From Bacteroides cutis (GTDB lineage: Bacteria > Bacteroidota > Bacteroidia > Bacteroidales > Bacteroidaceae), in contig NZ_OEST01000003.1 of assembly GCF_900241005.1 (NCBI RefSeq), forward strand, positions 62,001 through 126,000: DNA of 64,000 nt. The letters run 5' to 3'. Shown one piece after another: positions 113-45,420 of the stretch (position 1 is the stretch's first letter; every line of letters starts with the position of its first letter). Below the pieces are notes generated by a model. The model was not told the DNA's origin and did not search any database. It worked only from the letters and a program-made list of their open reading frames with translations. The translations under genes and the position numbers were made by a program.

Positions 113-286
113 TTTTTACGTGCAATTCCCAACGGCGAAAGCAAGAACAGCAGGCAAGGAACGGAGGTTAAAATTTTATGAAATGCCGCAATCTGCGATT
201 GCGGAAAGTTTGCGTCAAATTTTATCCGGAGTAGCGAAGCGGTACTTGACACGCTGTTCGTTCGCCGTACCTTTGCTGCGTAAAAA
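113..286 (-). promoter_or_regulatory. Element E1: candidate single-strand (Frpo-like) promoter
   Basis: On the + strand, 113-120 (TTTTTACG) pairs with 279-286 (CGTAAAAA), 132-139 (ACGGCGAA) with 261-268, 145-151 (GAACAGC) with 253-259, and 169-176 with 217-224; 186-193 and 197-204 close a perfect terminal hairpin. The distal arm has TTG at 246-248, 19 nt, then TACCTTTG at 268-275; the -7 box faces an unpaired bubble. Folded, it would transcribe leftward into the gene at 1-54. The predicted mRNA leader has a second hairpin at 73-108. That hairpin is stable only as minus-strand RNA: its inner stem needs a G-U pair that is a C-A mismatch on the + strand. Confidence 0.6.
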
Positions 287-515
287 CAGGCCGTGGCGAT
301 AGTGGAGATTCCATGAAATGATACGCCCAAGCATACAAAGGGAATGGAGGCAAAGATCTCCGGCCGTTACAACAGGAAACGACGGCAGTATGTGTCTGGG
401 GTATAAAGGGCAAAAAAAACGTCGAACGATTGTCCATCGGACAAAATGTAAGGGAATGGAAAAAGAATTGTCTGTATAACAGAATGTTCGACATGGCCTT
501 TATCGGGAATATGAA

Positions 516-545
516 CAACCACCTGTCCCGATTGGCAGGTGGTTG
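516..545. terminator. 10-bp perfect hairpin after the pcfJ-like gene
   Basis: CAACCACCTG at 516-525 and CAGGTGGTTG at 536-545 form a perfect stem 3' of the gene ending at 571. There is no clear T-run on either side, so terminator function is inferred from position. The rest of 287-570 has no credible gene; it would be the transcribed region if the E1 distal-arm promoter fired rightward as ordinary duplex DNA, and it holds a GTATAAAGGG-type motif near 398. Confidence 0.5.
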
Positions 546-570
546 CCCGATATAACTTCCGCAGCCGGTA

Positions 571-1836
571 TCAGGCGGCCATGCGCTTTCGGATAAGGGC
601 GATGTTCTTATGCACGAGGTTCATAATCCGCTTGTGATATTTCGTATTTTTATTACACAGTCCTCTCGACTGCAGCACCTTGAATGTTTCGAGGCTCAAT
701 TCTACGGTCTCGACCCTCTTGTCCTCTATCCGTGCGGAGAATACCAGCGTATCCGGTTTGAGGTAATATTCGCACTGTCCCACGCAGTGGTGCAACGCAT
801 TACCCTCGTCGTAGTAGGCTTCCACGCTATCCAGTACACGGACGACTATCGTTCCGTCCGTGAACTCCAGACCGAAGAACTTGCCTTTCAACTCCCTAAA
901 ACGTGCCTCGTTTTCCCTCGCCCGTTTCATCTGCTCCTTGCGTTTTTCCTGCTCTTGGAGAATACGCACCTTGTTCTGATACTTGTCATGCTCGGCTTTC
1001 AAATCGGCGGGGCAAACATAGTGGGCGTTGTGCAAGTCCTTGCCGCATCTGTCGAGCATACGGAGATAATCCACCCATATTCCAATGTCCGTTATCCGAT
1101 ACTTCTGGCGTAACACGATTTTGTAGGACGGCCAACAGAAATCCAAATCCTGCGGGTGGTCGATGAAGTGCTTGAGGTCTCGTTTGCGTCCACTTTTAAG
1201 TATTGTCTCCACTCGGCTGTCCGATAGCAGGGCTTTCATCAGCTTTTGCGGGGCGATGTCGGCAAACGACCCTTTCAGCCCGTTGCGCCGTAACTTCGGG
1301 ATAACCGTGTAGCCCGGACAGACATAACAGTCGGCTATGCGTTGGTACACGTAATTGTCGTTCCGCAGTTCCAATCCCGACCCGTACAGAAAGCTGTCCA
1401 AATAACACCCCATTGTCCGTTGCAAGGCTGTCAAAGCGGTTTTCCCGTTCTCGTCCAACCAGTATCTCGCCACTTCGCACACGTCTGTCCATGCGTTCTT
1501 GCCTTTGCGGTAACAGACATTCATTCTGAAAATCCGCTGCACCTGAAATCCGTCCTGCGTGGTGATGACAGAAAAATAGCTTTTCTCATCTGTCTTGCGG
1601 CAAAGCGTGTCTTTGAGCGTCAGTTTGGCGTGGCAGTTCGGGCAATGGCAACGCTTCGCCTTTGTCTCGTTCCACCTATGACCGCAATCGAGGCAGGTCG
1701 TTTGTCCGCTCGGTGTACGAAAAGCGTAATGTCCGACGGTATGCCGGAACGCCCATTCTGCCTGTTTCTCCGTGATAGGCAGCAACCGCCCGTTGGCGGC
1801 TACTACCTGATGCTGAAATTTTGTCCGTGCTTTCAT
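571..1836 (-). CDS. PcfJ-like conjugation-accessory protein
   Basis: A 421-residue protein. I chose the start at 1836 (MKARTKFQHQ) because it lies two bases past the stop of the PcfK-like gene; the longer reading frame to 2025 runs through that gene. Residues about 48-70 form a four-cysteine zinc ribbon (CLDCG and CPNCH). The C-terminal third has the PcfJ-domain feature ALHHCVGQCEYYL followed by a pattern resembling an RNase/nuclease fold. PcfJ-type proteins are found on conjugative plasmids and ICEs; their biochemical role is poorly known. It is the last gene of a three-gene operon behind element E2. Confidence 0.8.
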   Translation of the reverse strand: MKARTKFQHQVVAANGRLLPITEKQAEWAFRHTVGHYAFRTPSGQTTCLDCGHRWNETKAKRCHCPNCHAKLTLKDTLCRKTDEKSYFSVITTQDGFQVQRIFRMNVCYRKGKNAWTDVCEVARYWLDENGKTALTALQRTMGCYLDSFLYGSGLELRNDNYVYQRIADCYVCPGYTVIPKLRRNGLKGSFADIAPQKLMKALLSDSRVETILKSGRKRDLKHFIDHPQDLDFCWPSYKIVLRQKYRITDIGIWVDYLRMLDRCGKDLHNAHYVCPADLKAEHDKYQNKVRILQEQEKRKEQMKRARENEARFRELKGKFFGLEFTDGTIVVRVLDSVEAYYDEGNALHHCVGQCEYYLKPDTLVFSARIEDKRVETVELSLETFKVLQSRGLCNKNTKYHKRIMNLVHKNIALIRKRMAA

Positions 1837-1838
1837 GG

Positions 1839-2264
1839 TCAGAAATCGAAGAGTGAGAGTTCCGTTTGGGTATTCTGTACAGCTTTGGCGGTCGGCTTCG
1901 GCCTGCTGTGGCGTTGCTGTATCTTGCGCATTTCTTCCTCCTGATAGGCTTTCAGCGCGTCTTTTCGGGCTTGCGCCTTTTCTTCTTCGGTCAGCTCCAC
2001 CTTGTGATTGACCACGACGCCACAACTGATAGGTTTGCCCACGTCGATGTTGTCCTCATCATAGTAATGAATGGCGAGCGACCACACCTCGTCGTCGGTC
2101 ATTCCGCAACAGCCGCTTGCCTTGACTTGATTGAGAATGAATGTGATACAATCGTCCAAGTTTTTGTTTTCTTTGGCATAGGAGACGGCGAAAAGTTCGT
2201 CCGTCCGTGCCTTGCCGTCCAAGTATTCCTTGATAGTCCGTTTGAAATGTTCCGTACCTTTCAT
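1839..2264 (-). CDS. PcfK-like protein
   Basis: A 141-residue protein matching the PcfK-like family by its start (MKGTEHFKRTIKEYLDGKA), the acidic central part with the DNIDVGKPIS segment, and a charged helical tail ending in ELSLFDF. PcfK and PcfJ are normally neighbours, as here, and both occur in conjugative elements of Firmicutes and Bacteroidetes. No catalytic motif is visible. The stop is followed two bases later by the pcfJ-like start, so the pair is probably translationally coupled. Confidence 0.8.
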   Translation of the reverse strand: MKGTEHFKRTIKEYLDGKARTDELFAVSYAKENKNLDDCITFILNQVKASGCCGMTDDEVWSLAIHYYDEDNIDVGKPISCGVVVNHKVELTEEEKAQARKDALKAYQEEEMRKIQQRHSRPKPTAKAVQNTQTELSLFDF

Positions 2265-2281
2265 CGTTCAGCGTTTTGAGG

Positions 2282-2767: not shown

Positions 2768-2846
2768 AACTTTAAATTTTTAATTTGTTGAACTTGCTTT
2801 TTTCTTCTCCCTGCTTTCGGAGCCTTTCGGCTTCCTTGGCGGGAGA

Positions 2847-3054
2847 GATTTTACATGCAAGCCAGACAGCGGGGAAAGGACGGAAAGGCAAGCAAACGGC
2901 CGGAGAATTTCACGGAATACCCAACCCGTCGAGGTACGAGGCGGGGGCTGAAAGGCCATCTTCGATTTGCGGAAGGCTGCCGGGCAAATCCGCGAGCCGT
3001 TAGCATAGTGGTGCTTGACGCCGGACGACCGCTGTACCTTTGCATGAGAAAATC
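2847..3054 (-). promoter_or_regulatory. Element E2: candidate single-strand promoter of the pcfK/pcfJ operon
   Basis: Self-pairing of the + strand: GATTTT 2847-2852 with AAAATC 3049-3054; CATGCAA 2854-2860 with TTGCATG 3040-3046; ACAGCGG 2866-2872 with CCGCTGT 3029-3035; CAAGCA 2889-2894 with TGCTTG 3012-3017; AACGGC 2895-2900 with GCCGTT 2996-3001; and an inner GATTTG/CAAATC hairpin at 2964-2990. The promoter on the distal arm is TTG 3015-3017, 17 nt, TACCTTTG 3035-3042; its ACCT is unpaired against GCCAG. The leader hairpin between element and gene is 2806-2846 (stem TCTCCC/GGGAGA). Confidence 0.65.
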
Positions 3055-3194
3055 CAACCGGCGAGGAGGCAACGGGGGCGAGATCAGGGAAAGAATGGGA
3101 TAACCGGAATAAAAGAGGAAGAAGCCCGATTGTATATAGAAGTGGGAATAACGGCTAAAAAAGAAAATCTGCCTGTGAGGGCGATTGACAAAAA

Positions 3195-3229
3195 AAGCCC
3201 CCTGAACCTTTTGACCGTCCAAGGGACTT
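3195..3229. terminator. Stem-loop terminator
   Basis: AAGCCCCCTG (3195-3204) pairs with CAAGGGACTT (3220-3229) using two wobble positions. A run of A precedes it, giving a T-run on the minus strand, so it can end the GNAT transcript. It would also stop any rightward transcript from the E2 distal arm. A related loop is found at 5856-5890 beyond E3. Confidence 0.55.
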
Positions 3230-4215: not shown

Positions 4216-5130
4216 TCAGCGTTTGCCGTGCGCCTGTCCCAGAAGATAGTCTTGCAGGGATTGGTAGCGGTTTTGAATATTAGCGTTTTCATTGAAACCG
4301 TTCAGGCAATGAAGCAATGCTTTTTCGAGCGTGATGTATCGGCGGCTGAAAGTCTGTACGTTATCCAAGCAACAGGCTTCCAAAGCGTATTTGAACGGTG
4401 CAAAATTTTCAGGTTCTTTCCGAATCCGCACATGCCACAGGAAGAACAACTGAATCGTGAAACTGTCGGATTCACCTGCTTTCATCAAATGTTCTTCATC
4501 GAGCAACCGTCGGACAAGCTCCGGGGTAAGCTGGCAATCATTTTTCCGGTAATACATGCGTTTTGCCGTATTATAGGCTGCAAACTGTTCGATGTCCTGT
4601 GCCGTCAGCCTGTATACTTCCGAGTAAAATGCACGTACTTCTTTACCTGTAACAACGATTTTCTCGTCTCCGAACTCGTATTCATACGCTTTTTCATCGG
4701 AGATTTCCTCTTCTGTTAAGGTCTTGAACCCGTAACATTCCGTTACGATGAACGGTTCTTTTCCGAACTCCGCCAGAGATTCGAGGGCATGGAGGCTGTT
4801 GCAGGAGAAGAACATGTCGTTTCCAATACTTTCACCGCTTTCCAGCAGCCGGATTTTTACGTCTTCGGAATCGTTGGTGTACTTCCATACTATCCGACAA
4901 CTTGCATAATGGGGCTTCCTGCCGTTCGCCTCGACAAATCCGGCAAATCCGCTCTTGATGGCGGCCTTTGTCTTCTCTACATCCGTCAGGACGCTTCGTG
5001 CCTTACAGGTTTCGCACCGGCCGAATTGCAAAGAATCGTCGGAAATTTCCGTTATCACTTTGGTGTTGGGGTTTACTGTGGCTTCGCATACTACCTGCGT
5101 ACCGCCACATCGTGTACATATTATACTCAT
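4216..5130 (-). CDS. Unknown protein with N-terminal zinc ribbon (304 aa)
   Basis: The N-terminus carries two CxxC pairs (Cys5/Cys8 and Cys39/Cys42), a probable zinc ribbon, followed by about 250 residues with no recognised domain. The C-terminal half is rich in helices and aromatic residues. There is no signal peptide or membrane segment, so it is expected in the cytoplasm. It is the second gene after a 68-residue cysteine-rich protein (87-nt gap), both behind element E3. Function unknown. Confidence 0.75.
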   Translation of the reverse strand: MSIICTRCGGTQVVCEATVNPNTKVITEISDDSLQFGRCETCKARSVLTDVEKTKAAIKSGFAGFVEANGRKPHYASCRIVWKYTNDSEDVKIRLLESGESIGNDMFFSCNSLHALESLAEFGKEPFIVTECYGFKTLTEEEISDEKAYEYEFGDEKIVVTGKEVRAFYSEVYRLTAQDIEQFAAYNTAKRMYYRKNDCQLTPELVRRLLDEEHLMKAGESDSFTIQLFFLWHVRIRKEPENFAPFKYALEACCLDNVQTFSRRYITLEKALLHCLNGFNENANIQNRYQSLQDYLLGQAHGKR

Positions 5131-5503: not shown

Positions 5504-5711
5504 GATTTTACATGCAGATCAGACAGCGGGGAAAGGACGGGAAGGCAAGCAAACAGCCGGGGATTTCACGGAATACCCAACCCGACAGGCGCAGCAAGGA
5601 GGGAACTGAAAGGACATCTTCGATTTGGGAAGGCTGCCGGGCAAATCCACGAGCGGTTAGCATGGCGGTACTTGACACCGGACGACCGCTGTACCTTTGC
5701 ATGGGAAAATC
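5504..5711 (-). promoter_or_regulatory. Element E3: candidate single-strand promoter
   Basis: Closely related to E2. GATTTT 5504-5509 pairs with AAAATC 5706-5711, CATGCA 5511-5516 with TGCATG 5698-5703, ACAGCGG 5523-5529 with CCGCTGT 5686-5692. The distal promoter is TTG 5672-5674, 17 nt, TACCTTTG 5692-5699, with an internal loop opposite the -7 box. The leader hairpin lies at 5464-5502; its inner stem is GGAAAGCT/AGCTTCC on the minus strand where E2 has AGCC/GGCT, a compensatory change. Confidence 0.65.
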
Positions 5712-5895: not shown

Positions 5896-6597
5896 CTACT
5901 CTATAAAATGGTAATGGGCATTTTGGCATTCTCCGTTCGATTGTGTCTTTTGCAAAACGTCATCGACGCTGGAATATCGGCTAAAACAGCCGTTATATAT
6001 CTGCTTGCCGTCGAGCGTTATCCGTTGCAGGTAACAGCCGCATACTCCGTCACGGCTACGGTCAGCGACAAAATAGAACACGATACCGTTGCTGTACGAC
6101 AATCGCAATTCCGTATAGTTTATCTCGGTTTTGGGCTGTTCGGTCGGCAGACGGGTATTGAAATAACCCGTAGCCAGCATGACCTGTCCGGCGAAACGCA
6201 TGGCTTCTGCCCGATATTTTTTCATGGCCGAAGCCACGGGGCTTTCGTCCCGACCGTTTCCGACAAACGATGCGGGCAGGCTTCTGTTCCTGTAAGACAG
6301 TTTGAACATGCCGACCTCTTCCTGCACCACGGGCAGGCCGACAGCTTCGTACTCCTCTTTCGTCATTTCGATGAAACGTGTGCGTTCCTCGTCCAGATAG
6401 AGGCGGTAAGCGGGTTTCACCCGCTCCCGCTTCTCTTCATATTCCGCCTGTTCCCGTGCGTTCATGCAGTTATAAACGTGTCGGGACACTCTCCGCACCG
6501 CATTGACGAAAGTCGGGCTTTTGCATATCCCGAAATGCCGGGCGAAGTCGGGTACAGTCCCGATAAAGCCGTACTCTTTCCAATGATAGGTTCTCAT
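5896..6597 (-). CDS. Unknown ICE protein (233 aa)
   Basis: Starts MRTYHWKEYGFIGTVPDFARHFGICKSPTF, with a highly charged, helical middle (EQAEYEEKRERVKPAYRL) and a C-terminal half with alternating hydrophobic residues that looks like beta structure. No signal peptide, membrane segment or known motif. It follows the YubB-like gene by 15 nt and would be co-expressed with it from element E4. Function not recognised. Confidence 0.72.
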   Translation of the reverse strand: MRTYHWKEYGFIGTVPDFARHFGICKSPTFVNAVRRVSRHVYNCMNAREQAEYEEKRERVKPAYRLYLDEERTRFIEMTKEEYEAVGLPVVQEEVGMFKLSYRNRSLPASFVGNGRDESPVASAMKKYRAEAMRFAGQVMLATGYFNTRLPTEQPKTEINYTELRLSYSNGIVFYFVADRSRDGVCGCYLQRITLDGKQIYNGCFSRYSSVDDVLQKTQSNGECQNAHYHFIE

Positions 6598-7267: not shown

Positions 7268-7475
7268 GATTTTACATGCAGGCCAGACAGCGGGAAAATG
7301 AGGAAAAGGCAAGGAAACCGCCGGGGATTGAACGGAATACCCAACCCGACAGCGCAGCACGGCGGGGACCGAAAGGTCATCTTCGATTTGGGAAGGCTGC
7401 CGGGCAAATCCGCGAGCCGGTTAGCGGAGCGGTACTTGACGACCGAATGACGCTGTACCTTCGCATGGGAAAATC
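7268..7475 (-). promoter_or_regulatory. Element E4: candidate single-strand promoter of the yubB-like operon
   Basis: GATTTT 7268-7273 pairs with AAAATC 7470-7475, CATGC 7275-7279 with GCATG 7463-7467, ACAGCG 7287-7292 with CGCTGT 7451-7456. The distal promoter is TTG 7436-7438, 17 nt, TACCTTCG 7456-7463, a T-to-C variant of the -7 box. The leader hairpin is 7227-7265, inner stem GGAAGC/GCTTCC. The middle part (GATTTGGG..CAAATC, 7385-7410) is nearly identical to E2 and E3. Confidence 0.65.
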
Positions 7476-9552: not shown

Positions 9553-9564
9553 GTTCCACTCCTT

Positions 9565-10185: not shown

Positions 10186-10195
10186 ATCTCCGTAT

Positions 10196-12001: not shown

Positions 12002-12025
12002 ATATTGAATTTTATCCGATTCTCT

Positions 12026-29146: not shown

Positions 29147-30604
29147 TTATCGTTTGGGCTTTTTGCCGATGGCCGGACGCATCATGCGGCTCGCCATTCT
29201 CATGCAGCGGAGCGCCCATGCCCGGTTGTCCTCGTCGTCATCGCGTCCCCATTTGAGGTCACTGCCGCCACCACCTCCGCCACGTGTTTCGGCAAATGTA
29301 GTGGCATCATCGACCATGCCGAGGAACAACAGTGTGGCGCAGTGCATGACTTCCGTGCCTTGTTCTGCCACGGAGCGCACGAGGGTGCCATCGAACAGTT
29401 GCCGTTCGGAGGGCTTCATACGTGCCGACAGTTCCCGCCACTCATCGACCATGTTTTCCAGCATGGCATCCTTGAGCAGGCTGTCCACTTTGGAATGTAC
29501 ATCACGGGTGTATTCGTAGGCTTCTTCCTTAAGCTGTTCCGTGCGTTCCTGAATGGCATCCATATTCTCTTTGAGGTCGGAAAGCTGTCGGTCGGCAGTC
29601 TGTAACTTCTCCTGTTTGTCTGCCAGTTTCCCTTGGATAGCGACCAGTTCTTTTTCGAGTTTCTCTTTCTCGGCGGATATGGCCAAGGCATCGTCTTTTC
29701 GGGAGTTCATGTCATTTTCGAGTGCTGCCAGTTGGGCCTCCTTTTCGGATTTCTCTCGTCGCAGGTTTTCCACCATTGAAGTGAGACCCTTTACCCTGCG
29801 CTCTGCCAGCCGTATATCCGAATGAAGATCGGAAAGCACTTTTTGGTGGCGGTCAATATTCTCCTCGATAGTTGTACACTCTTCCGAGAGCATACGGCGG
29901 TATTCTTCCGTCGTCCTGTGCCGTGCGCCGGTCTCGGCGACGCTCCGGCCTCTCGCCATTCCCCATTTCGTGTTGACCTCGGCGAAAAAGTCCGTATGGA
30001 GCTGTTTCATTCTCGCACTATATTCGAACTTGTCCTTTCCGGCGAATATCTCCTTGTACGCAAACTTCCCGTCTTTGATTGGCAGAAGCGTGCAATGCAC
30101 GTGCGGATTCAACTCGTCGAGGTGTACAATGAAGGCGGCAACATTCTGCTCTCCGTATCTGCCACAAACGAATGAATAGACATCCTTTGCCCAACGTTCG
30201 ATGTCGCTCTTCCTTTTGATGCTGGTATTGTCCGCACCTTTTTCAAAATCCACCTTCTGCGTACCGAATGCGAGTTCGTGCATCCGCTCCCGCGAACCTC
30301 CAAAGATGATGTTTACCACCGTGCGGTATTTCGGTTCGATCAGTCCCTCGTTGGGGTCCTTTATTCCGCGACGGCCCAATATGTCCGCCATCCGTTCCGG
30401 GATATTACGGCTCGTGTCAATAGGGCGTATCTTGCCTCCGGACGCAATCTCGAAGTTCAGATGTTTGCGAGTGGGATCGTAGTTGCCCTTACTCATGGCG
30501 TACTTCTCTGCCTCTTTGCTGCGATTGCGCAGATGTTCGTTGCCTTGGGCGGCGGTGATTCCTTTCGACACTTGAACGTCAAGAACCTGTTTTGCATTTG
30601 CCAT
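29147..30604 (-). CDS. MobV-family relaxase (Mob/Pre)
   Basis: A 485-residue relaxase. The N-terminal half has the MobV features MANAKQVLDVQVSKGITAAQGNEHLRNRSKEAEKYA and motif III FIVHLDELNPHVHCTLLPIKDG (HxDE…PHVH), which binds the metal at the nicking site. The C-terminal half (about 235-370) is a long coiled coil, followed by a glycine-rich turn. It nicks oriT and pilots the strand during transfer. It is the sixth gene of a minus-strand unit starting at about 34,200. A likely oriT is directly upstream. Confidence 0.88.
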   Translation of the reverse strand: MANAKQVLDVQVSKGITAAQGNEHLRNRSKEAEKYAMSKGNYDPTRKHLNFEIASGGKIRPIDTSRNIPERMADILGRRGIKDPNEGLIEPKYRTVVNIIFGGSRERMHELAFGTQKVDFEKGADNTSIKRKSDIERWAKDVYSFVCGRYGEQNVAAFIVHLDELNPHVHCTLLPIKDGKFAYKEIFAGKDKFEYSARMKQLHTDFFAEVNTKWGMARGRSVAETGARHRTTEEYRRMLSEECTTIEENIDRHQKVLSDLHSDIRLAERRVKGLTSMVENLRREKSEKEAQLAALENDMNSRKDDALAISAEKEKLEKELVAIQGKLADKQEKLQTADRQLSDLKENMDAIQERTEQLKEEAYEYTRDVHSKVDSLLKDAMLENMVDEWRELSARMKPSERQLFDGTLVRSVAEQGTEVMHCATLLFLGMVDDATTFAETRGGGGGGSDLKWGRDDDEDNRAWALRCMRMASRMMRPAIGKKPKR

Positions 30605-30826
30605 ACTGCTTCCGTGTTATTTCGGACAATCCCCCGTGTCCCCAGCTTGCTGCTTGTACGGACACCCTTCCCACCGACGAATGTCGGTCGGGGTATTAGG
30701 CTCCCCCTTCCCTTTGTTCAGTGGCAGACGGGCAAGCCCGGATGCCTGCTATAACTGGAAGGATATTTGAACCTGAACCGGGGAGAATTGCCCGTGGTTA
30801 TACAATCTTTGTCTGCGAATCCCTGT
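30605..30826. other. Candidate oriT
   Basis: 222 nt between the relaxase start and the stop of the upstream gene, with a cluster of small hairpins: GTGTCC 30636-30641 with GGACAC 30660-30665; ACCGAC 30673-30678 with GTCGGT 30683-30688; and GGCA..CGGGC at 30723-30733 with GCCCG..TGCC at 30736-30746. Such inverted repeats next to a mob gene are typical of origins of transfer. The nick site is not identified. Confidence 0.55.
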
Positions 30827-34183: not shown

Positions 34184-34207
34184 TGTTCAATTTTGAATTT
34201 TACAGCG

Positions 34208-34237
34208 CAAATCTAAGTATTATTTTCAAGATGGCAA
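34208..34237 (-). promoter_or_regulatory. Promoter of the mobilisation unit
   Basis: On the minus strand, TTG at 34237-34235, a 19-nt spacer, and TAGATTTG at 34215-34208, a near-perfect σABfr promoter 25 nt upstream of the first gene. Confidence 0.78.
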
Positions 34238-34388: not shown

Positions 34389-34417
34389 TACTTGTTATCA
34401 TAGAAGTGTACAATGAG

Positions 34418-35065
34418 ATGGCAAAAGTAGGTTACATATTTAAGGCGGATCGTTACGACGGGTTCGAGGCTGACAAAGAATGGATGCAGAAGTACGGCTG
34501 TGTACAAGTGATAGAGGAACCGGTCGAAAGCGAGGCGCTACGGCCTAAATGGAAACAGCTTGTGGCGAGCCTCGAAAGGGGTGACGAGGTAGTGGTGGCC
34601 AAATTCAGCAATGCCCTCCGAGGGTCGCGCGAACTGTCGGCTTTCATTGAGTTGTGCCGTATCAAGGTGGTACGCATCATATCCATCCATGACCGGATCG
34701 ACTCACGGGGTAAACTGTTTCCCGAAACGACGGTTGCCGATGTGCTGGAGATGTTCGGGGCGCTTCCCGAAGAGGTGGCGATACTGCGATATTCGTCCGC
34801 ACGTGTCTTGAACCTGCAACAGAACGCGAAGATTCCGAAGAAAACGATGAAGGCTATGGATAAGGCCGACAAGGAAAATACTATTGTTGACATGTATGTC
34901 AACGGCCATTCATTCGAGGACATCATGGCGGTAAGCGGGTACAGCAGTCGGAGTTCGGTATTCAGCGTGCTCCACAGGCATGGGGTAAAACTCAACAGGG
35001 GGAAATTCAGCGGCCCCTTGGGAACCCGGAAAAAGAAAAAGGACGACAGTCCGGCGGAAGAATAA
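34418..35065 (+). CDS. Serine-recombinase-like protein lacking the catalytic serine
   Basis: A 215-residue protein; ATG at 34418 (MAKVGYIFKADRYDGFEADK) is preferred to a GTG 12 nt earlier. Overall it follows the small serine recombinase plan: an N-terminal resolvase fold (RGDEVVVAKFSNALRGSRELSAFIELC) and a C-terminal helix-turn-helix (SFEDIMAVSGYSSRSSVFSVL). The usual YLRVS motif reads YIFKAD, so the nucleophile is missing, and the RLSRS arginines are altered. It is probably a DNA-binding regulator or relic rather than an enzyme. Confidence 0.75.
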   Translation: MAKVGYIFKADRYDGFEADKEWMQKYGCVQVIEEPVESEALRPKWKQLVASLERGDEVVVAKFSNALRGSRELSAFIELCRIKVVRIISIHDRIDSRGKLFPETTVADVLEMFGALPEEVAILRYSSARVLNLQQNAKIPKKTMKAMDKADKENTIVDMYVNGHSFEDIMAVSGYSSRSSVFSVLHRHGVKLNRGKFSGPLGTRKKKKDDSPAEE

Positions 35066-38693: not shown

Positions 38694-39008
38694 TTAATCC
38701 GTCACCTCCCAGTAATAGCTTAACTCGTTCCCTTTCAGATTCTCTTTGGCGTATTGGTCGGCTTGTTCCCAAAGAGTATTGTAAAGTACCGCCATATCCG
38801 GTCTGTTTTCATAGTATTGCCATATCTTATGGTTAAGTACCAATGTCAGTTCCGTCAAGAACTTATAGTCCCCTTTCCACTCCCTGAAAGCCCGGTTGAA
38901 AGTGTCCAAAACAGCCGCCAACCCAAATCTGTCCGCTATTGAGAAGTCTTCCCAAAAGGTTGTTTGTAACTCATAACCGTTCTCTTGCATAAATTCTTTA
39001 AATGTCAT
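38694..39008 (-). CDS. Unknown leading-region-type protein (104 aa)
   Basis: Starts MTFKEFMQENGYELQTTFWEDFSIADRFGL, acidic, helical, rich in Trp and Tyr; no motif recognised. Aromatic-rich acidic proteins of this size occur among anti-restriction and DNA-mimic proteins, but the sequence gives no proof. Its start is 80 nt from the base of element E5 and the leader has the conserved hairpin. It ends at the bidirectional terminator 38634-38670. Confidence 0.72.
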   Translation of the reverse strand: MTFKEFMQENGYELQTTFWEDFSIADRFGLAAVLDTFNRAFREWKGDYKFLTELTLVLNHKIWQYYENRPDMAVLYNTLWEQADQYAKENLKGNELSYYWEVTD

Positions 39009-39078: not shown

Positions 39079-39235
39079 TTATTTTTCTGCCTATAGGATT
39101 GACGGTCGGTCCAGGCAAGAAGGCTGCGAAAAATACACTCTCCAACAAAGTCGGGGAGGAAGATTTTTCGACAGCAAGCGTAAGCGGTTCTTGACAGGAC
39201 AGACAAGCGGCAATCGAACTTTGCAGAAAAAATAA
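39079..39235 (-). promoter_or_regulatory. Element E5: candidate single-strand promoter
   Basis: TTATTTTTCTGC 39079-39090 pairs with GCAGAAAAAATAA 39223-39235 (one bulge); GATTG 39097-39101 with CAATC 39211-39215; CAAGAA 39116-39121 with TTCTTG 39188-39193; GCTG and GAAAAAT (39123-39134) with ATTTTTC and CAGC (39163-39175); CTCTCC 39138-39143 with GGGGAG 39153-39158. The distal promoter has TTG 39191-39193 and GAACTTTG 39216-39223, the latter partly in the bubble. Leader hairpin 39048-39074 with inner stem GGTACA/TGTACC. Its sequence is almost unlike E2-E4, but the same pairing geometry is kept. Confidence 0.62.
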
Positions 39236-39477: not shown

Positions 39478-40167
39478 TTAGGAAACCCATTTGTAACCTT
39501 CGTCCGTCAGTTCAAAATATTCGTCCATTCCCGGTTTCACAAAAAACATGATTTCAAAGGCTTCGTTGCTTCTACCTTCGGGTATCGTCATGTTGATTTC
39601 TCCATTGCGGGCTGTTCCTCTTCCCGTATTGAAACCTAAGTCTTCGTCCGCATAGGCGTAATGGAATTCCACATCCGGAAATATCTCGGAAAGTTTTTGG
39701 ATAAGCAGTGGCACTCCATTCCATGCCGTATCGAACCAAAGTATGTTCGGCTCTTCAAAGTCTTGGTGATAGGCATTCCATTTTGTACCCCATGTGGCGG
39801 TAGACCACTCGTACCAAGTGGGATAACCGTACTTTTTCCGATTTTCCAAATACGATGCTCCAAGTTGCAGCGCTTCTTTTCTGTCCTTTTCCGCCAATCC
39901 TTCTATCCATTGAATGGTTCTCAAAGCATCATCGTCCAATAAAAAATAGAATGGCTTCAACTGCATTGCTTCAAGGTATTTCATACCCAAATCTCCACTG
40001 CTGCTTTTTTCTATCAACAGTTCTTCAGGCATAGGAATGATGTTGTTGAAGTCGATGTAACAAGGCGTATTGTCATCATCGGTTTTACCTTTTAAGAAAT
40101 TCATTACTTTTTGTACTGTTTCCCGGTCTGCGTTTATTTCTAAACGGTTTGTCACATGATTAGGCAT
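39478..40167 (-). CDS. YubB/DUF1281-like protein (229 aa)
   Basis: Starts MPNHVTNRLEINADRETVQKVMNFLKG, the typical DUF1281/YubB ferredoxin-fold beginning, with IDFNNIIPMPEELLIEKSSSG and the conserved WGTKWNAYHQDF and LWFDTAWNGVPLLIQKLSEIFPDVEFHYAYADED segments. Family members sit in leading regions of conjugative plasmids and are of unknown molecular role. It lies behind element E6 and is a distant relative of 6613-7194. Confidence 0.85.
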   Translation of the reverse strand: MPNHVTNRLEINADRETVQKVMNFLKGKTDDDNTPCYIDFNNIIPMPEELLIEKSSSGDLGMKYLEAMQLKPFYFLLDDDALRTIQWIEGLAEKDRKEALQLGASYLENRKKYGYPTWYEWSTATWGTKWNAYHQDFEEPNILWFDTAWNGVPLLIQKLSEIFPDVEFHYAYADEDLGFNTGRGTARNGEINMTIPEGRSNEAFEIMFFVKPGMDEYFELTDEGYKWVS

Positions 40168-40238: not shown

Positions 40239-40393
40239 GGTTTTACGGATGCGGTACACGGCTGTCGGGAAAACTTCATACGGTGGCTTTCCTTGGAAAA
40301 TTACTCTTACCCCGGTAAGGAAGAATTTTGCAAGAAATGCACTTCAAGCCACCGGATCAAGTGCGACGGCCTACCTTTGCATCTGGTAAAACC
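40239..40393 (-). promoter_or_regulatory. Element E6: candidate single-strand promoter of the second yubB-like gene
   Basis: GGTTTTAC 40239-40246 pairs with GTAAAACC 40386-40393; GATGC 40248-40252 with GCATC 40379-40383; GGCTGTCG 40260-40267 with CGACGGCC 40364-40371 (one wobble); CGGTGGC 40281-40287 with GCCACCG 40348-40354; terminal hairpin CTTACC/GGTAAG within 40297-40328. The -7 box TACCTTTG is 40372-40379; no clear TTG at the -33 position. Leader hairpin 40203-40239, inner stem CGGTTC/GAACCG. Confidence 0.6.
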
Positions 40394-40593: not shown

Positions 40594-41121
40594 TTATGCG
40601 GCCTTGTCCGGCTTGCGCTGCCTTGTTTTCCAGCCGTACACGGCGGCTACATACGGATAGAGGGAACGTGTTCTCCGGCGGAAACCTTCTTCGTCGATTT
40701 CACGGTTGTAAATCTTATCGGCGATACGCTCCGCTTCATCACGGTCTTTGGCGATACGATACAAGGTGTAGTTCGTACCGTCATGATGGCCCATCCGTCC
40801 GCGAATGTTATAGCCGTCGCCGTACCATTCTGCATCGTCGCACTGGGATTTCAAAATATCGGCAATGGTGCTGCCCAATATTTGATAGCCTTGTCTCCGG
40901 CCGTTCCATAATCCCAAGTTGCCGAACACGACAATAATGCCGTCCACTTCTTTATTCAGGTTGCTCCGTTCGTCGTCCAGCCAGCGATATACTTCTTCTG
41001 CCCATTCTTCATCGCTGACCTCGTAACAGTCATCGTCCAATATTTCCCGTTGTGAATTTTGATAGTATTCTTTTGCCGTTTCGTCCAACAGGTCATAGCT
41101 TGACCAAATCATCTGTTTCAT
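40594..41121 (-). CDS. Unknown acidic leading-region-type protein (175 aa)
   Basis: Starts MKQMIWSSYDLLDETAKEYYQNSQREILDDDCYEVSDEEWAEEVYRWLDDE. The first 60 residues are very acidic; a central beta-rich part (GIIVVFGNLGLWNGRRQGYQILG) leads to a basic C-terminus (RRTRSLYPYVAAVYGWKTRQRK). The acidic patch next to an SSB gene and behind element E7 makes an anti-restriction role conceivable, but it does not show the ArdA sequence pattern. No family recognised. Confidence 0.75.
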   Translation of the reverse strand: MKQMIWSSYDLLDETAKEYYQNSQREILDDDCYEVSDEEWAEEVYRWLDDERSNLNKEVDGIIVVFGNLGLWNGRRQGYQILGSTIADILKSQCDDAEWYGDGYNIRGRMGHHDGTNYTLYRIAKDRDEAERIADKIYNREIDEEGFRRRTRSLYPYVAAVYGWKTRQRKPDKAA

Positions 41122-41196: not shown

Positions 41197-41380
41197 GATT
41201 TTACGTGCGGACCACAAGGCGGACAGAAGGGAAACAAGGCAAGGAGGAAGCGGATAGTCCTATGGACGATTTCATTTGTGTTGAACAAGTATTGACGAGC
41301 TTGCGAGTTGATGGTTGTTAACCTCAAATGAAGCCGCGCCTTGCCGGTTCCCGACCGCCTTAACTTTGCACGGGAAAATC
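41197..41380 (-). promoter_or_regulatory. Element E7: candidate single-strand promoter
   Basis: GATTTT 41197-41202 pairs with AAAATC 41375-41380; CGTGC 41204-41208 with GCACG 41368-41372; AAGGCGG 41216-41222 with CCGCCTT 41355-41361; GGCAAGG 41238-41244 with CCTTGCC 41339-41345; TTCATTTG 41271-41278 with CAAATGAA 41325-41332. Distal promoter TTG 41341-41343, 17 nt, TAACTTTG 41361-41368: the -33 lies in a perfect 7-bp duplex and AACTTT of the -7 faces GGACCAC unpaired. Leader hairpin 41157-41194. One of the clearest copies. Confidence 0.68.
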
Positions 41381-41501: not shown

Positions 41502-41885
41502 TTACTTCTTGCCCTTCTTCGGTTTCTTTGCCGGTTCCGCAGGAACTTCCTCCTCTTTATCGACAGCCGGATAAAATTTGACTGCAACCGTCACGATGCG
41601 GTTGTGCAGCACGCCGTCTTTGTCGGTCCATTCTTCGGGTTTAAAATAGCCCTCCACGGTAAGCAGCGTGCCCTTGGTGAGCTGGTCGAACGACCCGGTA
41701 TTCTCGTTCTTGCGCCACGCTTCAATGTTCATGAAAGCGGATATACGCTTGGTATCTTCGCCGTTCTTCTCCTGACGGGCCACTGCCAGCGGGAAACGTG
41801 CGACACTTGTGGTGGTGAACTGACGGACTTCGGCATCTTTTGCCACGAATCCGGTTACTGCGAAATTGTTCTCGATCTTTTTCAT
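41502..41885 (-). CDS. ssb: Single-stranded DNA-binding protein
   Basis: A 127-residue OB-fold SSB: NNFAVTGFVAKDAEVRQFTTTSVARFPLAVARQEKNG, ISAFMNIEAWRKN, GTLLTVEGYFKPEEWTDKDG, RIVTVAVKFYP. The C-terminal tail is lysine-rich (KKPKKGKK) and lacks the acidic DDDIPF tip by which chromosomal SSBs recruit partners. Element-borne SSBs coat incoming single strands and can dampen the SOS response. Element E8 is 30 nt upstream. Confidence 0.9.
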   Translation of the reverse strand: MKKIENNFAVTGFVAKDAEVRQFTTTSVARFPLAVARQEKNGEDTKRISAFMNIEAWRKNENTGSFDQLTKGTLLTVEGYFKPEEWTDKDGVLHNRIVTVAVKFYPAVDKEEEVPAEPAKKPKKGKK

Positions 41886-41914
41886 TGCGATTGCTTTTTG
41901 AAGTTAATAAATCA

Positions 41915-42095
41915 GTTTTACGGTGCATAAAAGTAGGTGCAGTAAAGGGCTGCACCAAGGATAGCGCATAAATACTCTTTATTTTGGAGGCGAAGCCCCA
42001 AACCGCAAGCCCGATAAAGGAAGATTTGTGCGATACGCCATTGGTCAAGACCATCGGGTCGCGCCCGTCTGCATACTAACTTTGCAACGAAAAAC
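41915..42095 (-). promoter_or_regulatory. Element E8: candidate single-strand promoter of ssb (divergent copy)
   Basis: GTTTTACG 41915-41922 pairs with CGAAAAAC 42088-42095 (one mismatch); TGCA 41924-41927 with TGCA 42083-42086; TGCAG 41938-41942 with CTGCA 42069-42073; an inner hairpin TGGTC/GACCA at 42042-42053. The -7 box TAACTTTG is 42077-42084; no TTG lies at the usual distance. The spacing to the gene (about 39 nt) is shorter than elsewhere and the leader hairpin is missing, so this is the least certain copy. Confidence 0.42.
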
Positions 42096-42565
42096 GATAT
42101 GGCGACTTCAAATAGAAAGCGGTCGCGAAAAAGTCGAGGCGAAACAATCCGCAGCGGACTCGGAAACATGAAAGACCTGTCCGTCCACCGACACAAGACC
42201 GCTCCCGTTCCGGCAGGTGGGCGGGAAGAACATCAGGCGAGAAAGTGTATCGGCTGTTTGGGGTTGAAGCGGCAAGAACGATATACCGTTTAACAACCAT
42301 ATACGCTGCATCGTGGAAAATACTATCGGACGAAGATCCGGCAAAAGGCGTGTGCGACGTATCGATATCGCTGTCTCTATCCGGCAAGAGAAATGAGGGA
42401 AAGAAGAGGTAAAGGAAAAATGGCCGAAGTCTGCCTTGAAACAAAGCGGAGAAGCCGCCTTTGCATGAGTGGCCGTTCGATATAAAAGGATATGGCGCAG
42501 CCGAAATGTATAAAGGGGTATTTCCGAAGGAAACGGTATGAGTGTCTGTTCGGAAATAAAAGAGG
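42096..42565. other. Region between E8 and the IS, no confident gene
   Basis: Contains TTG 42436-42438, 17 nt, CGCCTTTG 42456-42463 followed by GCATGAG, like the distal arm of E2, and two downstream motifs TATAAAAGG (42481) and TATAAAGGGG (42508). No matching proximal arm was found. A 64-codon frame at 42099-42293 is open but has biased arginine-rich composition and no family. The region ends abruptly at the IS. Confidence 0.4.
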
Positions 42566-43812
42566 TGTAATAGTCAAGACTTGTTCTGACAGCTTGTTTA
42601 GTATCGGACAAAAAAACTGTCAGCTGTTTGTTGCGAAGTTACGCAACTTTCTTGACTCTCACAACCGGATGGTGTTATATTAACGCCATTCGGTTTTATT
42701 GTTTCCTGATTTTGGAGTTTGTATTTCCTTGCGACGGCAATCCCTTCGATAAAAGTCTGCATGGGTGTTTTTCCGAAACAGTACTTTCCGGAGTGGGTTC
42801 TTTGGGTGTTGTAGGAGTTCATCCACGCATCGAGGTCTGTTTGCAGTTGCTCAATAGAGGTATAGATTTTCTTTCTAAATGCGATTGCATAGAACTCGTT
42901 CTGCACGGTTCTGTTGAATCTCTCGCAGATGCCGTTTGTCTGCGGGCTTTTCGCCTTGATTTTAGAGTGGTCTATATCCTCCACAGCCAGATACAGTTCA
43001 TATTCGTGGTTTTCTCTGTTTCCGCAGTATTCCGTTCCTCTGTCTGTGAGCATACGCATCAGCTTCAGGTCATGCTGCTCGAAGAAAGGCACTATCCTGT
43101 CATTGAGCATATCGGCAGCGACAAGGGCGTTCTTCCTGTCGTATAGCTTAGCAAATCCGATTTTGGAGTAAGTGTCAATGACGGTCTGCTGATAAATGTG
43201 TCCGACACCTTTGATGTGTCCAACATAATAAGTATCCTGGGCGACAAGGAAACCGGGATAATAGGTTTCTATCTCTCCATGAGCCTGTTTCTCTTCCTTT
43301 GCTTTCTCCAATGCAGCCACTTGGTTCTCATCAAGGATAATGCCCTCTTGTTCCACTTTGGCAGACAATGCTTTCAGGCGTTTCTGGAAGGTCTCCATAT
43401 CGTGCCGCAGCCAAATGGAGCGTACTCCGCCCGGCGAAACAAGAATGCCTTTCTTCCGCAATTCATTGGATACACGCACCTGCCCCAATGCCGGATTGTC
43501 TATCGCCATCCCTACCACAGCCTGCTCGATGTGTTCTTCCACACGGTTCTTTATGACAGGCTTACGGCGTGAGATCTCCTGCAAGGCGATTTCACCTCCT
43601 TGTTCATACAGCTCCTTAAAACGATAAAAACTGTCACGGCTATAACCCATAATCTTGCAAGCACGTGATACGTTTCCTAACTGTTGGGAGAGTTCAAGCA
43701 ATCCCAGTTTGTTCTTGATGACTTTTTCTGATGTGGTCATAACTCAATCTGTTTTCTGTTACAAATTTATTCTTTTTATACGTAACTGTCAGATTAAGTC
43801 TTGACTATTACA
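42566..43812 (-). mobile_element. IS481-like insertion sequence
   Basis: A 1,247-bp element with about 27-bp imperfect inverted repeats: TGTAATAGTCAAGACTT(gt)TCTGACAG at the left end and the same with AATCTGACAG at the right. It encodes one transposase on the minus strand. The flanking bases (AAAAGAGG left, CATAATCC right) show no target duplication, and the right end truncates a gene while the left end abuts unrelated sequence. An IS-associated deletion is therefore likely. Confidence 0.85.
42598..43740 (-). CDS. IS481-like DDE transposase
   Basis: A 380-residue protein with N-terminal helix-turn-helix regions (LELSQQLGNVSRACKIMGYSRDSFYRF, then a second winged part) and an integrase catalytic core: Asp in QDTYYVGHIKGVGHIYQQTVIDTYS, Asp in LTDRGTEYCGN, Glu in SPQTNGICERFNRTVQNEF. 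It is nearly as long as the IS and appears complete, so the copy may be active. Confidence 0.9.
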   Translation of the reverse strand: MTTSEKVIKNKLGLLELSQQLGNVSRACKIMGYSRDSFYRFKELYEQGGEIALQEISRRKPVIKNRVEEHIEQAVVGMAIDNPALGQVRVSNELRKKGILVSPGGVRSIWLRHDMETFQKRLKALSAKVEQEGIILDENQVAALEKAKEEKQAHGEIETYYPGFLVAQDTYYVGHIKGVGHIYQQTVIDTYSKIGFAKLYDRKNALVAADMLNDRIVPFFEQHDLKLMRMLTDRGTEYCGNRENHEYELYLAVEDIDHSKIKAKSPQTNGICERFNRTVQNEFYAIAFRKKIYTSIEQLQTDLDAWMNSYNTQRTHSGKYCFGKTPMQTFIEGIAVARKYKLQNQETIKPNGVNITPSGCESQESCVTSQQTADSFFVRY

Positions 43813-44055
43813 CATAATCCGATGTTTGAAAATCCTGTTTTTATCGCTCGGTCGCCGTTGCTTTATCCAGATATGGTGTGCTCCGTATCCGAATATGAAA
43901 TAGTCGTCGAGCGTGGTTTCGTTCTTCAAGCGTTCCATACTTGCCCGAAGTTCGGTTTCGTCAGTTGCAAAAAGAATCGTGTTCATGATTCGGAAATAGA
44001 TTTCTTCCGCTTCATCGCTATAGCGGCAAAAGACGTGTTCGATTGTTACGTTCAT
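43813..44055 (-). pseudogene. Accessory gene truncated by the IS
   Basis: The start ATG at 44055 (MNVTIEHVFCRYSDEAEEIYFRIMN) lies 4 nt past the stop of the upstream gene; 81 codons remain, ending FGYGAHHIWIKQRRPSDKNRIFKHRIM at the IS boundary, after which the frame reads a few IS codons to a stop. The missing 3' part is not elsewhere in the window. The family is unknown. It was the last or a late gene of the operon behind element E9. Confidence 0.7.
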
Positions 44056-44059
44056 GGTT

Positions 44060-44356
44060 CTATTGGTTTGATTGAGGTGTTTCGGGTACATTAGTCATTA
44101 TTGATTCTCCGTCTTGATTGAAAATTTCTATTGTCGGGTTGCCGTCGTTTTCTTCGGGGAGCATAGATTCCGATGTATCGGTCAATGCTTGCCACTCTTC
44201 ATAGCAAAGACGGTTGTCAATGATGTTCGACACGTCCTCACAGTTCCATGAGCGGACGATTGCCTCGGCTTCTTCATAACTGTCCGCTTTCACACTGAAA
44301 TAATCCCGTTCCCAACTTGTAACCTTACGGTCTTGATAAAATTTGTATTCTCCCAT
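44060..44356 (-). CDS. Unknown small acidic protein (98 aa)
   Basis: Starts MGEYKFYQDRKVTSWERDYFSVKADSYEEAEAIVRSWNCEDV, then a very acidic tail (ESMLPEENDGNPTIEIFNQDGES). The N-terminal part resembles short beta-alpha units also seen in other leading-region proteins. It is in an operon with four others behind element E9. No function recognised. Confidence 0.68.
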   Translation of the reverse strand: MGEYKFYQDRKVTSWERDYFSVKADSYEEAEAIVRSWNCEDVSNIIDNRLCYEEWQALTDTSESMLPEENDGNPTIEIFNQDGESIMTNVPETPQSNQ

Positions 44357-44368
44357 ATCCTTGTTGTT

Positions 44369-44701
44369 TTAACCGCTTACTTCTACAATATCCTCTATTC
44401 TGCCGTACAGTATCGAGCGTAACGCTGTTTTGTCAATCGCATAATACTCGTGAATACTTCCGTGCTGTTTGACGAAATACCGTTTGAGGATGTCGGAAAA
44501 GTCAAAGTGATAACCGCTCAAGGCAATTCCACGTTTGAAATAGATACTTTCCCATACGTTACGGGTAATCCAGTTCTTTTCTTCCCGGTTTAACTTGCCT
44601 CCGTTGTTCAGGTGTACCCGCAATTTGTAAACCTTGCTGTCCTGCAATGTCGCCAGTTCGGGAATGTCCCATTTGACGAATTTTGTTGCTATCTGTGTCA
44701 T
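44369..44701 (-). CDS. Unknown small basic protein (110 aa)
   Basis: Starts MTQIATKFVKWDIPELATLQDSKVYKLRVHLNNGGKLNREEKNWITRNVWESIYFKRGIAL, with charged helices and no motif. The context is a minus-strand operon with 12-15 nt gaps behind element E9. It may be a nucleic-acid-binding accessory protein, inferred only from its charge and context. Confidence 0.68.
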   Translation of the reverse strand: MTQIATKFVKWDIPELATLQDSKVYKLRVHLNNGGKLNREEKNWITRNVWESIYFKRGIALSGYHFDFSDILKRYFVKQHGSIHEYYAIDKTALRSILYGRIEDIVEVSG

Positions 44702-44715
44702 ACGTTTGCTATCGT

Positions 44716-44892
44716 TTAATCATGGATAATCACTTCATCACGGTATTCTGAAATTTCCTTGCCGCTTTCAAGGCGGACAACTATGGTATTGCCATAGTCG
44801 CCCACGATTGTGCCTTCCATGTAACCTTTATATGGATTGAGCAACGTGCAGGACAAACCGATAATATCGCTATCTTCTTCGTATTCGTACAT
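44716..44892 (-). CDS. Small protein (58 aa) of the E9 operon
   Basis: The start at 44892 gives MYEYEEDSDIIGLSCTLLNP, continuing through YMEGTIVGDYGNTIVVRLESGKEIS to EYRDEVIIHD and a TAA at 44716. It is tucked between two genes with gaps of 14 and 18 nt. Alternating hydrophobic residues suggest a small beta barrel. Function unknown. Confidence 0.62.
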   Translation of the reverse strand: MYEYEEDSDIIGLSCTLLNPYKGYMEGTIVGDYGNTIVVRLESGKEISEYRDEVIIHD

Positions 44893-44910
44893 AGTGAATT
44901 GTGTTTAGGT

Positions 44911-45207
44911 TTAGGATAACTTAATGTTCCATTTACCTTGCGAGAATATCCGAAAGCTCACGTATTCGTCCTCTAACTCGTATGTCAGTATGCGGATATA
45001 GATTTTGTCTTTGGCTGCCAATAAGGCTATTAATTCGTTGATTGCTTTTTCCGGGTATTCCCAGCGGGAATCAAATTCGGCATCTACCGTGTCGCCATAC
45101 CGGTTGACAAAGCCGTTGAAATTATCGTCCAGAAATGCCTCTATCTTATTGAGGTCTTGTTTGTTTTCCGTACTTGCGTGGAAAATGTTTGTTGCGTAGT
45201 TTGCCAT
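44911..45207 (-). CDS. Unknown small protein (98 aa), first gene of the E9 operon
   Basis: Starts MANYATNIFHASTENKQDLNKIEAFLDDNFNGFVNRYGDTVDAEFDSRWEYPEKAINELIALL. The order of motifs (an N-terminal strand, then AEFDSRWEYPEKAI) recalls a minimal YubB/DUF1281-type ferredoxin fold, but this is tentative. It is 70-75 nt from the base of element E9, so it would be the first product. Confidence 0.68.
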   Translation of the reverse strand: MANYATNIFHASTENKQDLNKIEAFLDDNFNGFVNRYGDTVDAEFDSRWEYPEKAINELIALLAAKDKIYIRILTYELEDEYVSFRIFSQGKWNIKLS

Positions 45208-45277
45208 AACTTTGAATTTTAAGTTTTCTTTTTTCCCTCTTGTAGCATCCAGCTACTTTCGGGCTTGATTTAATTAT

Positions 45278-45420
45278 GTCGCTTCAAAAGGTGTCATGGC
45301 TCTTTATGCAAGGTTTCACGATTAAATACTACCCGTGCGGAACGGAGGGTGGAGATTTTGTCGTGAACCGTTAGGCTTTGACCTTGCATACAAGAAAGAC
45401 ATGACAAGTACCTTTGCGAC
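45278..45420 (-). promoter_or_regulatory. Element E9: candidate single-strand promoter
   Basis: GTCGC 45278-45282 pairs with GCGAC 45416-45420; AAAGGT 45287-45292 with ACCTTT 45410-45415; GTCATG 45293-45298 with CATGAC 45400-45405; ATGCAAGGT 45306-45314 with ACCTTGCAT 45381-45389; CACGA 45317-45321 with TCGTG 45361-45365. Distal promoter: TTG 45384-45386, 22 nt, TACCTTTG 45409-45416. Here the -7 is mostly paired, with asymmetric bulges TTCA and AAGT on either side. Leader hairpin 45236-45263 with stem GTAGC/GCTAC. Confidence 0.66.

Follow-up and report, generated by a model that had tools for sequence, protein, structure and literature searches.

An element of Bacteroides cutis that encodes a MobV family relaxase carries fourteen long hairpins, each of which is probably a folded single-stranded DNA (ssDNA) promoter that would fire only while the plus strand is single. 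As modelled here, the hairpins would be the Bacteroidales counterpart of Frpo of plasmid F. Single-stranded promoters have been shown in plasmids of Proteobacteria and are predicted in a few other elements. The stretch that was analysed, called the window below, comprises 64,000 nt (contig NZ_OEST01000003.1, here C16, positions 62001-126000, from a 3.9-Mb draft genome). An earlier reading made from the letters of this DNA (the sequence-only reading) had placed nine hairpins in it. All nine are present and fold on the plus strand, but the count falls short for the element, which runs to the left beyond the window on C16 and holds five more. All fourteen lie on the plus strand and face minus-strand open reading frames (ORFs). 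Positions refer to the window unless C16 is named.

Hairpins and their promoter boxes

113..286, plus strand: hairpin E1 (class B); -7 box TACCTTTG at 268; precedes a 117-aa minus-strand ORF starting at window position 54
2847..3054, plus strand: hairpin E2 (class B); -7 box at 3035, TTG 17 nt before it; precedes 2282-2767 and the PcfJ gene 571-2025
5504..5711, plus strand: hairpin E3 (class B); -7 box at 5692; precedes a 67-aa minus-strand ORF and 4216-5130
7268..7475, plus strand: hairpin E4 (class B); -7 variant TACCTTCG at 7456; precedes 6613-7194 and 5896-6597
39079..39235, plus strand: hairpin E5; -7 variant GAACTTTG at 39216; precedes 38694-39008
40239..40393, plus strand: hairpin E6; -7 box at 40372, usual TTG absent; precedes 39478-40167 (DUF1281_C, YubB-like)
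41197..41380, plus strand: hairpin E7; -7 box TAACTTTG at 41361; precedes 40594-41121
41915..42095, plus strand: hairpin E8 (SSB class); -7 box at 42077, usual TTG absent; SSB start codon 29 nt away
45278..45420, plus strand: hairpin E9; -7 box at 45409, TTG 22 nt before it; precedes 44911-45207
C16 5344-5536, plus strand: hairpin left of the window; -7 box GACCTTTG or CAACTTTG; the ORF behind it starts 226 nt away
C16 7531-7688, plus strand: hairpin left of the window; exact -7 box
C16 8407-8598, plus strand: hairpin left of the window; -7 box GACCTTTG or CAACTTTG
C16 10176-10382, plus strand: hairpin left of the window; -7 box GACCTTTG or CAACTTTG
C16 15610-15774, plus strand: hairpin left of the window; -7 box TACCTTCG

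The primary sigma factor of Bacteroides is described as recognising TAnnTTTG at -7 and TTTG near -33, and this sigma-ABfr motif is reported to precede 81% of the primary start sites of B. thetaiotaomicron (PMC7366714). In the hairpins these boxes occupy the 3' arm, reading in the direction of the stem base. Eight of the fourteen -7 boxes are exact TAnnTTTG, two are TACCTTCG and four are GAACTTTG, GACCTTTG or CAACTTTG. Within the window the box is exact in 7/9 hairpins and a TTG precedes it by 17-22 nt in 7/9, the exceptions being the boxes at 40372 and 42077. The sequence-only reading was right to see σABfr-type promoter boxes in the far arm. It was also right about the leading-region character of the genes behind the hairpins, which include SSB, PcfJ, DUF1281/YubB-like and methylase-helicase genes; the ORF 6613-7194 behind E4 matches DUF1281_C below the cut-off. 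The distance from the stem base to the minus-strand gene is at most 100 nt in most cases.

Related hairpins were collected with a scan by folding energy, a Smith-Waterman scan being too weak. To count as a hit, a place needed paired arms, an exact TAnnTT[TC]G and, at a distance of 15-130 nt, an ORF on the opposite strand. Its 80 hits reduced to 73 distinct ones and, after 12 chance-like hits without class or relatives were removed by hand, to 61, a set that excludes E5 and three of the extra left-hand hairpins. Counts on the 61 lean toward the model, because the scan criteria partly build those features in. A TTG lies 15-23 nt before the -7 box in 46/61, against 9.5 expected from random places.

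On the plus strand the G end of the -7 box is paired within the outermost, base stem, and its TAnn part falls at an internal loop. Over the 61 hairpins, the A of the box has a mean pairing probability of 0.31 and the G one of 0.98, and the A is mostly unpaired in 44/61. The second stem has 6-8 pairs, with a sequence that varies between copies while the pairing is kept; the arm pairs quoted in the sequence-only reading, ACAGCGG/CCGCTGT and AAGGCGG/CCGCCTT among them, are present. In class B a CAAG/CTTG pairing that contains the -33 TTG is invariant (11/11). The apical hairpin has an asymmetric internal loop, with AATAC.CT opposite AGGAAGATT in several classes and AATACC opposite GGAAGG in class B. 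This apical motif is common to the diverged hairpin classes.

No exact own-strand -7 box is found within 250 nt of any of 21 hairpin genes, compared with 9/17 other genes of the P. distasonis element described below (Fisher p 1.5e-4) and 6/13 others on C16. The mob operon provides a contrast to the hairpin genes:

34184..34215, minus strand: conventional duplex promoter box of the mob operon, TAGATTTG, 32 nt upstream of 34183

The statement that a hairpin stands before all operons of this kind goes too far. Apart from the mob operon, the minus-strand ORFs 43789-44701 have no hairpin directly in front.

Fold strength and covariation

The nine window hairpins have DNA folding energies of -33.0 to -39.3 kcal/mol on the plus strand. 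Against dinucleotide shuffles, eight of the nine score z -2.09 to -8.26, as the sequence-only reading would predict; the weakest are 7268-7475 and 2847-3054, and 39079-39235, which has no exact -7 box, is outside the shuffle-scored set. With the same kind of shuffles and DNA energies, 56/61 curated hairpins have z < -2 (median -4.18).

Covariation among homologous elements, also expected from the earlier reading, was found in Bacteroidales. The class-B alignment contains 11 sequences (four from this element, six from the P. distasonis relative and one from P. massiliensis), and its structure has 39 pairs, consisting of the RNAalifold pairs and four added by hand. In total, 92.1% of the 429 cells are paired, compared with 33.2-44.4% in slid controls. 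Changes on both sides occur in 54 cells versus 20.4 in shuffles, and 0/500 shuffles reach 54. The structure was taken from the same alignment, so it is favoured against the slid versions, and less so for the double changes. For the apical motif, 86.1% of cells are paired in 19 sequences (42.0-60.5% when slid), with 47 both-side changes versus 17.0.

The 61 hairpins fall into six blastn groups of 26, 17, 7, 6, 4 and 1, which indicates that the shared shape is not plain copy similarity. Recent transposon copies were rejected on the same grouping. Gene and hairpin units repeated in one orientation, with diverse sequence and a common shape, also recall integron-like attC sites that move gene cassettes. 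Integron attC core sites are RYYYAAC and GTTRRRY. These cores are present at the ends in 0/61 hairpins, and hairpin class tends to stay with gene family, one class going with SSB-sized genes and one with large methylase-helicase genes. We rejected attC sites on these grounds and give the idea next to no credence.

The promoter strand has a lower z than its complement in 45/61 hairpins with DNA energies (p 7e-7) and in 39/61 with RNA energies (p 0.0025). Because the 61 came from folding that strand, the comparison was repeated on independently found sets. The promoter strand is better in 20/20 hairpins found by the apical sequence pattern in named genomes (p 1.9e-6; these are close relatives of each other). 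It is also better in 11/13 matches of other classes to R1, a model of the apical motif (p 0.02); the 13 loci were drawn from 20 R1 loci, with L119, L122, L124, L125, L127, L132 and L133, mostly near copies, omitted.

This asymmetry bears on the idea that the hairpins extrude as cruciforms from supercoiled duplex and bind a regulator via the apical motif. The apical internal loop (AATAC.CT opposite AGGAAGATT) does account for most of the invariant columns of its alignment. Both strands of a cruciform should, however, be equally constrained, yet one folds better, and we regard this explanation as most improbable.

Predicted transcript leader

In many of the predicted transcripts the stem base is followed by a small stem-loop, then AGGGAA, A-rich sequence and the ATG. 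An example is found behind E2:

2768..2846, minus strand: leader with stem-loop, AGGGAG, A-rich stretch and ATG

Exact AGGGAA is found behind E1, E3, E4, E5, E6 and E9, AGGGAG behind E2 and AGGGAT behind E7. There is none behind E8, whose relatives in the SSB class are likewise short-spaced, with start codons 22-25 nt from the base. AGGGAA occurs no more than 90 nt from the base at 51/61 hairpins, compared with 63/3050 random places; the median distances are 29 nt to the base and 31 nt to the start codon downstream.

The second conserved stem-loop just before the genes makes regulation at the RNA level plausible, and the whole structure could act as RNA in the 5' leader of the minus-strand gene, as an attenuator or regulatory leader with a promoter further right. 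The plus strand, which is the complement of that RNA, nevertheless folds better, and an exact own-strand -7 box lies within 130 nt to the right in only 4/61. This reading would also leave the conserved opposite-strand -7 box unexplained, and no Rfam family matches in the window at E 0.5. The minus-strand RNA leader was rejected, and we consider it quite improbable.

Distribution and lone hairpins

Relatives of the element share its backbone. MobV, OmpA-like, toprim, zincin, recombinase and SSB proteins are also encoded in P. distasonis NZ_OY725765.1 and B. finegoldii NZ_OY725888.1, both labelled TSDC17.2-1.1, and the same protein accessions in the two records point to recent transfer. The same hairpin arms are present in P. 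massiliensis OY725994.1 (label TSDC17.2-1.1, unannotated), and OY726012.1 encodes a MobV 64% identical to that of this element. Although NZ_OY725888.1 (L054) is labelled a plasmid, it contains genes for ribosomal proteins and so resembles a piece of chromosome that was closed into a circle during assembly.

At 11 loci with this mobV, some of which are the same element, a fixed threshold yields 67 hairpins opposite the mobV coding strand and 4 on it. The count leaves out three loci without a mobV match: G041 (1 and 4), G003 (0 and 1) and G113 (0 and 1). As a control, three stretches with other integrative and conjugative elements (ICEs) of the same genome, 250 kb in total, contain 1 and 1 hairpins. 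Among distant MobV genes (10 places in 9 genomes), two loci have no strong score, seven have one to three over both strands, and G409 has 5 on plus and 3 on minus. With no clear hairpin set at these genes, the hairpins are apparently not general to MobV.

The search with the apical sequence pattern is the cleanest test, because only the apex was searched. It found 32 sites in 31 stretches of named genomes, in Bacteroides, Phocaeicola, Parabacteroides, Duncaniella, Xylanibacter, Leyella, Mediterranea and Barnesiella and in unnamed Muribaculaceae, Rikenellaceae and Bacteroidales. One site (Barnesiella) is too close to an edge; the 31 readable sites represent 20 distinct hairpins. A -7 box is present at 31/31, its arm pairing at -14.9 kcal/mol or lower. 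An opposite-strand ORF follows at 30/31, and AGGGAA or AGGGAG at 29/31. Since relatives are not independent, the counts of loci and the p-values given here overstate independence: Pm162, G197 and G123 carry one element, and G080 and G149 C2:1-80000 nearly one.

On the genome of B. cutis, R1 has 9 matches at E up to 1. Eight lie in this element, all on the plus strand, four of them having been used to build R1 and the other four not; the ninth is on C8 near another MobV gene. Order-wide, R1 matches in 21/393 genomes and phylum-wide in 1/296, the own genome only. Among the 39 order-wide matches listed, 12 lie in the two MobV elements here and in G033, and 20 loci were fetched, one on the own contig C8 and 19 in other genomes. 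The remaining seven are weaker (G411, G221, three in G489, G220 and G364). The three in G489 (C1:597536, 906891 and 2926557) have equal scores on one strand, as might be the case for a mobile element in several copies or for a repeat due to chance.

The R1 hairpins outside the large elements stand alone. At the four loci checked (L115, L123, L126 and L128), a tyrosine integrase is encoded within 2 kb. At L115 (G000 C8:507598-507786, in the B. cutis genome), a hairpin of great length with the same apical motif precedes a second MobV gene by 292 nt, and at L123 a SIR2/HerA-type defence operon and the integrase lie beside the hairpin. A -7-like box follows the apex in 12/20 R1 loci.

Lone hairpins with the same apex near integrases, one of them beside another MobV gene, are what would be expected if the hairpins were single-strand origins, at which polymerase enters mainly to make a primer for the second strand rather than mRNA. 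One origin would suffice for such an element, and many copies would speed duplex conversion. Frpo of F is itself described as serving transcription and primer RNA synthesis, at least in a paper title cited in PMC11541004. The hairpins of the large elements, on the other hand, precede genes with a conserved leader (51/61), which is needless for a primer site. We consider origins of this kind a rather unlikely explanation of the hairpins. Both cases would be accommodated by a shared role as single-strand polymerase entry site, used for priming by small elements and for mRNA by large ones.

Proposed mechanism

If the hairpins are single-strand promoters, they would fold just after entry into the recipient, when the plus strand is expected to be single. 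Bacteroides RNA polymerase with the primary sigma factor would bind the stem and open it at the loop in the -7 box. The polymerase would then run off the base and copy the 5' flank of the plus strand as template, so that the resulting transcript starts with the conserved leader and reads into the minus-strand gene. In the duplex form the promoter would point away from the gene, and the genes would therefore shut off after second-strand synthesis. The set of SSB, PcfJ, DUF1281-like and methylase-helicase genes would fit an early job in the recipient. It is possible that the hairpin entry site also provides RNA primers for second-strand synthesis.

The model requires the plus strand to be the one transferred. 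The features that bear on this are the relaxase gene and the region upstream of it:

29147..30604, minus strand: MobV family relaxase (PF01076, NF041497)
30634..30758, minus strand: probable origin of transfer; inverted repeats in three parts, strongly conserved, in the intergenic region upstream of mobV

The region 30634-30758 contains the conserved motifs CGGGCTTGCCCG, AGCCTAATACCCC and TGTCC..AAGCAGCAAGCTGGGACA. A nick motif of the MOBV1 type was not found in this probable origin of transfer, the block just upstream of mobV, with some matches in the wider region, and the RP4-type nick motif gave many matches in a relative and is uninformative. In favour of plus-strand transfer, a promoter predicted to be productive exists only on the plus strand, which is also the folding strand. 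The leading and mob genes lie on one strand, like the ssb and tra genes shown in F. In F, deletions of Frpo are reported to abolish the early rise of leading-gene reporters (PMC9849209).

Several observations weigh against a single-strand promoter. The -7 box is one base off in 6/14 hairpins. Within 300 nt, 1/21 hairpin genes has an exact own-strand box, and with a looser own-strand definition, in which TTG is needed and one mismatch tolerated over 300 nt, a promoter is found for 10/21 hairpin genes and 6/17 others; with no difference under these criteria, the hairpin genes may have weak duplex promoters. In the class-alignment columns, G.T (57) is not significantly above A.C (46). Among the lone hairpins, 8/20 R1 loci lack TAnn[TC]T[TCA]G over the 110 nt that follow the apex, AGGGAA is present in 1/15 leaders inspected (L115), and the L116 hairpin precedes an hsdR (type I restriction) gene that has its own duplex TATCTTTG. 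The remaining points concern the strand. The MOBV1 relaxases MobM and MobSag are reported to nick the relaxase coding strand (PMC5863519, PMC5090054), which here is the minus strand. On that coding strand a GCAAGC hairpin lies near -60 of mobV in this mobV family (by eye) and at several other MobV genes. The authors of the pLS20 study rejected ssDNA promoters on such strand grounds (PMC8708921). As 30634-30758 is without a MOBV1 nick sequence, the MOBV1 precedent may not carry over. The Frpo logic of the sequence-only reading is consistent with the plus-strand hairpins, the covariation, the boxes, the gene types and the folding strand, but the MOBV1 precedent points to the other transferred strand.

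The same precedent, a nick on the relaxase coding strand, would suit hairpins that act in the donor. The retained plus strand would then be briefly single during transfer or rolling-circle copying, and the genes would be on in conjugating donors. Replacement synthesis, however, normally covers the retained strand in the donor, and SSB, PcfJ and methylase-type genes suit the needs of the recipient. Action in the donor is improbable in our view.

Comparison with known systems

Frpo/ssi of F and ColIb-P9 is likewise a long hairpin whose stem contains promoter boxes, and it too recurs in front of operons that include ssb (PMC9849209). The leading and tra genes of F are also on one strand. In contrast, F has sigma-70 boxes instead of the Bacteroides -7/-33 boxes, and two copies instead of the 14 found here in several diverged classes with a shared apical motif and RNA leader. 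No sequence relation was found between a 22-kb F region and the 61 hairpins (best blastn E 0.62). By analogy, the hairpins would work like Frpo, with no sequence homology found.

Samuel et al. 2024 likewise predicted hairpin promoters before leading-region anti-defence genes; their new Frpo-like candidates were sought by sigma-70 consensus boxes, and the main text of the article is without any 'bacteroid' word (PMC11541004). The EGeRS of pLS20-type plasmids are alike in being repeated elements before establishment operons of a conjugative element. They differ in that their authors found no promoter in the fold, identified the transferred strand as the non-template strand and argued that they are not ssDNA promoters (PMC8708921). 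The single-strand origin of MobV plasmids (ssoA, PMC5090054) is also a folded single-stranded entry site on a MobV element; unlike it, the hairpins described here precede genes and occur in many copies with an mRNA leader. Our literature search, which reached neither preprints nor most subscription papers, found no description of Frpo-type ssDNA promoters in Bacteroidota.

Taken more broadly, and as a tentative proposal that we hold with somewhat less conviction than an even balance, the hairpins may constitute a single-strand-only regulon of Bacteroidales. Its folded promoters, up to 14 per element, would have diverged arms with one apical motif and mRNA leader, and would keep establishment operons on as ssDNA and off as duplex. 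The single copy in small integrase elements would be a polymerase entry site, and the origin of the system would be independent of Frpo of F.

The carrier element and its genes

The label ICE used in the sequence-only reading is unproven. For the type IV secretion system, only TraM (PF12508) and YWFCY/TraG-type (PF14293) proteins were searched; neither family has a match on C16, and their matches sit on C5, C6 and C11 instead. A tyrosine integrase has no match in C16:1-145000. The element does have a MobV relaxase and a conserved upstream inverted-repeat region, as in a MobV mobilizable element, and "MobV mobilizable island" seems a more fitting description of it than "ICE". Its extent was judged by gene content only, and no exact repeats of at least 12 bases that would mark its ends were found. 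Several large proteins of the element are without a Pfam match. Further genes in the window are:

571..2025, minus strand: PcfJ-like gene (PF14284), in the operon under E2
34406..35065, plus strand: serine recombinase (Resolvase domain); a conventional TATATTTG lies 25 nt before the gene
41502..41885, minus strand: SSB gene (PF00436) under E8

A 1658-aa protein with methylase and helicase parts is encoded at C16 10587-15563 (L006), behind its own hairpin here and in related elements, and may be an anti-restriction or defence protein. At C16 43.9-60.4 kb (L008), a plus-strand operon encodes toprim, M23, zincin/ArdC-like, glucosaminidase, SSB-like and large unnamed proteins. It is kept in the P. 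distasonis relative and may be part of an unrecognised transfer machinery. The cargo at 7822-13578, which encodes two ABC transporters, methyltransferases and an ATC hydrolase-like protein, may be a small biosynthetic cluster. A probable insertion sequence at 42108-43740, directly adjoining E8, consists of a small ORF and a transposase-like gene with HTH and rve domains.

Implications

If the model is true, ssDNA promoters also exist, in a version of their own, in a phylum whose primary sigma factor is different, with more copies per element than the two of F. A newly entered recipient could make the helper proteins of the element at once. The conserved motif makes the hairpins easy to find, and through them the strand that MobV elements transfer in Bacteroidales could be tested directly. 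They would also give a searchable list of the genes that gut mobile elements express in the first minutes after entry, many of them functionally uncharacterised.

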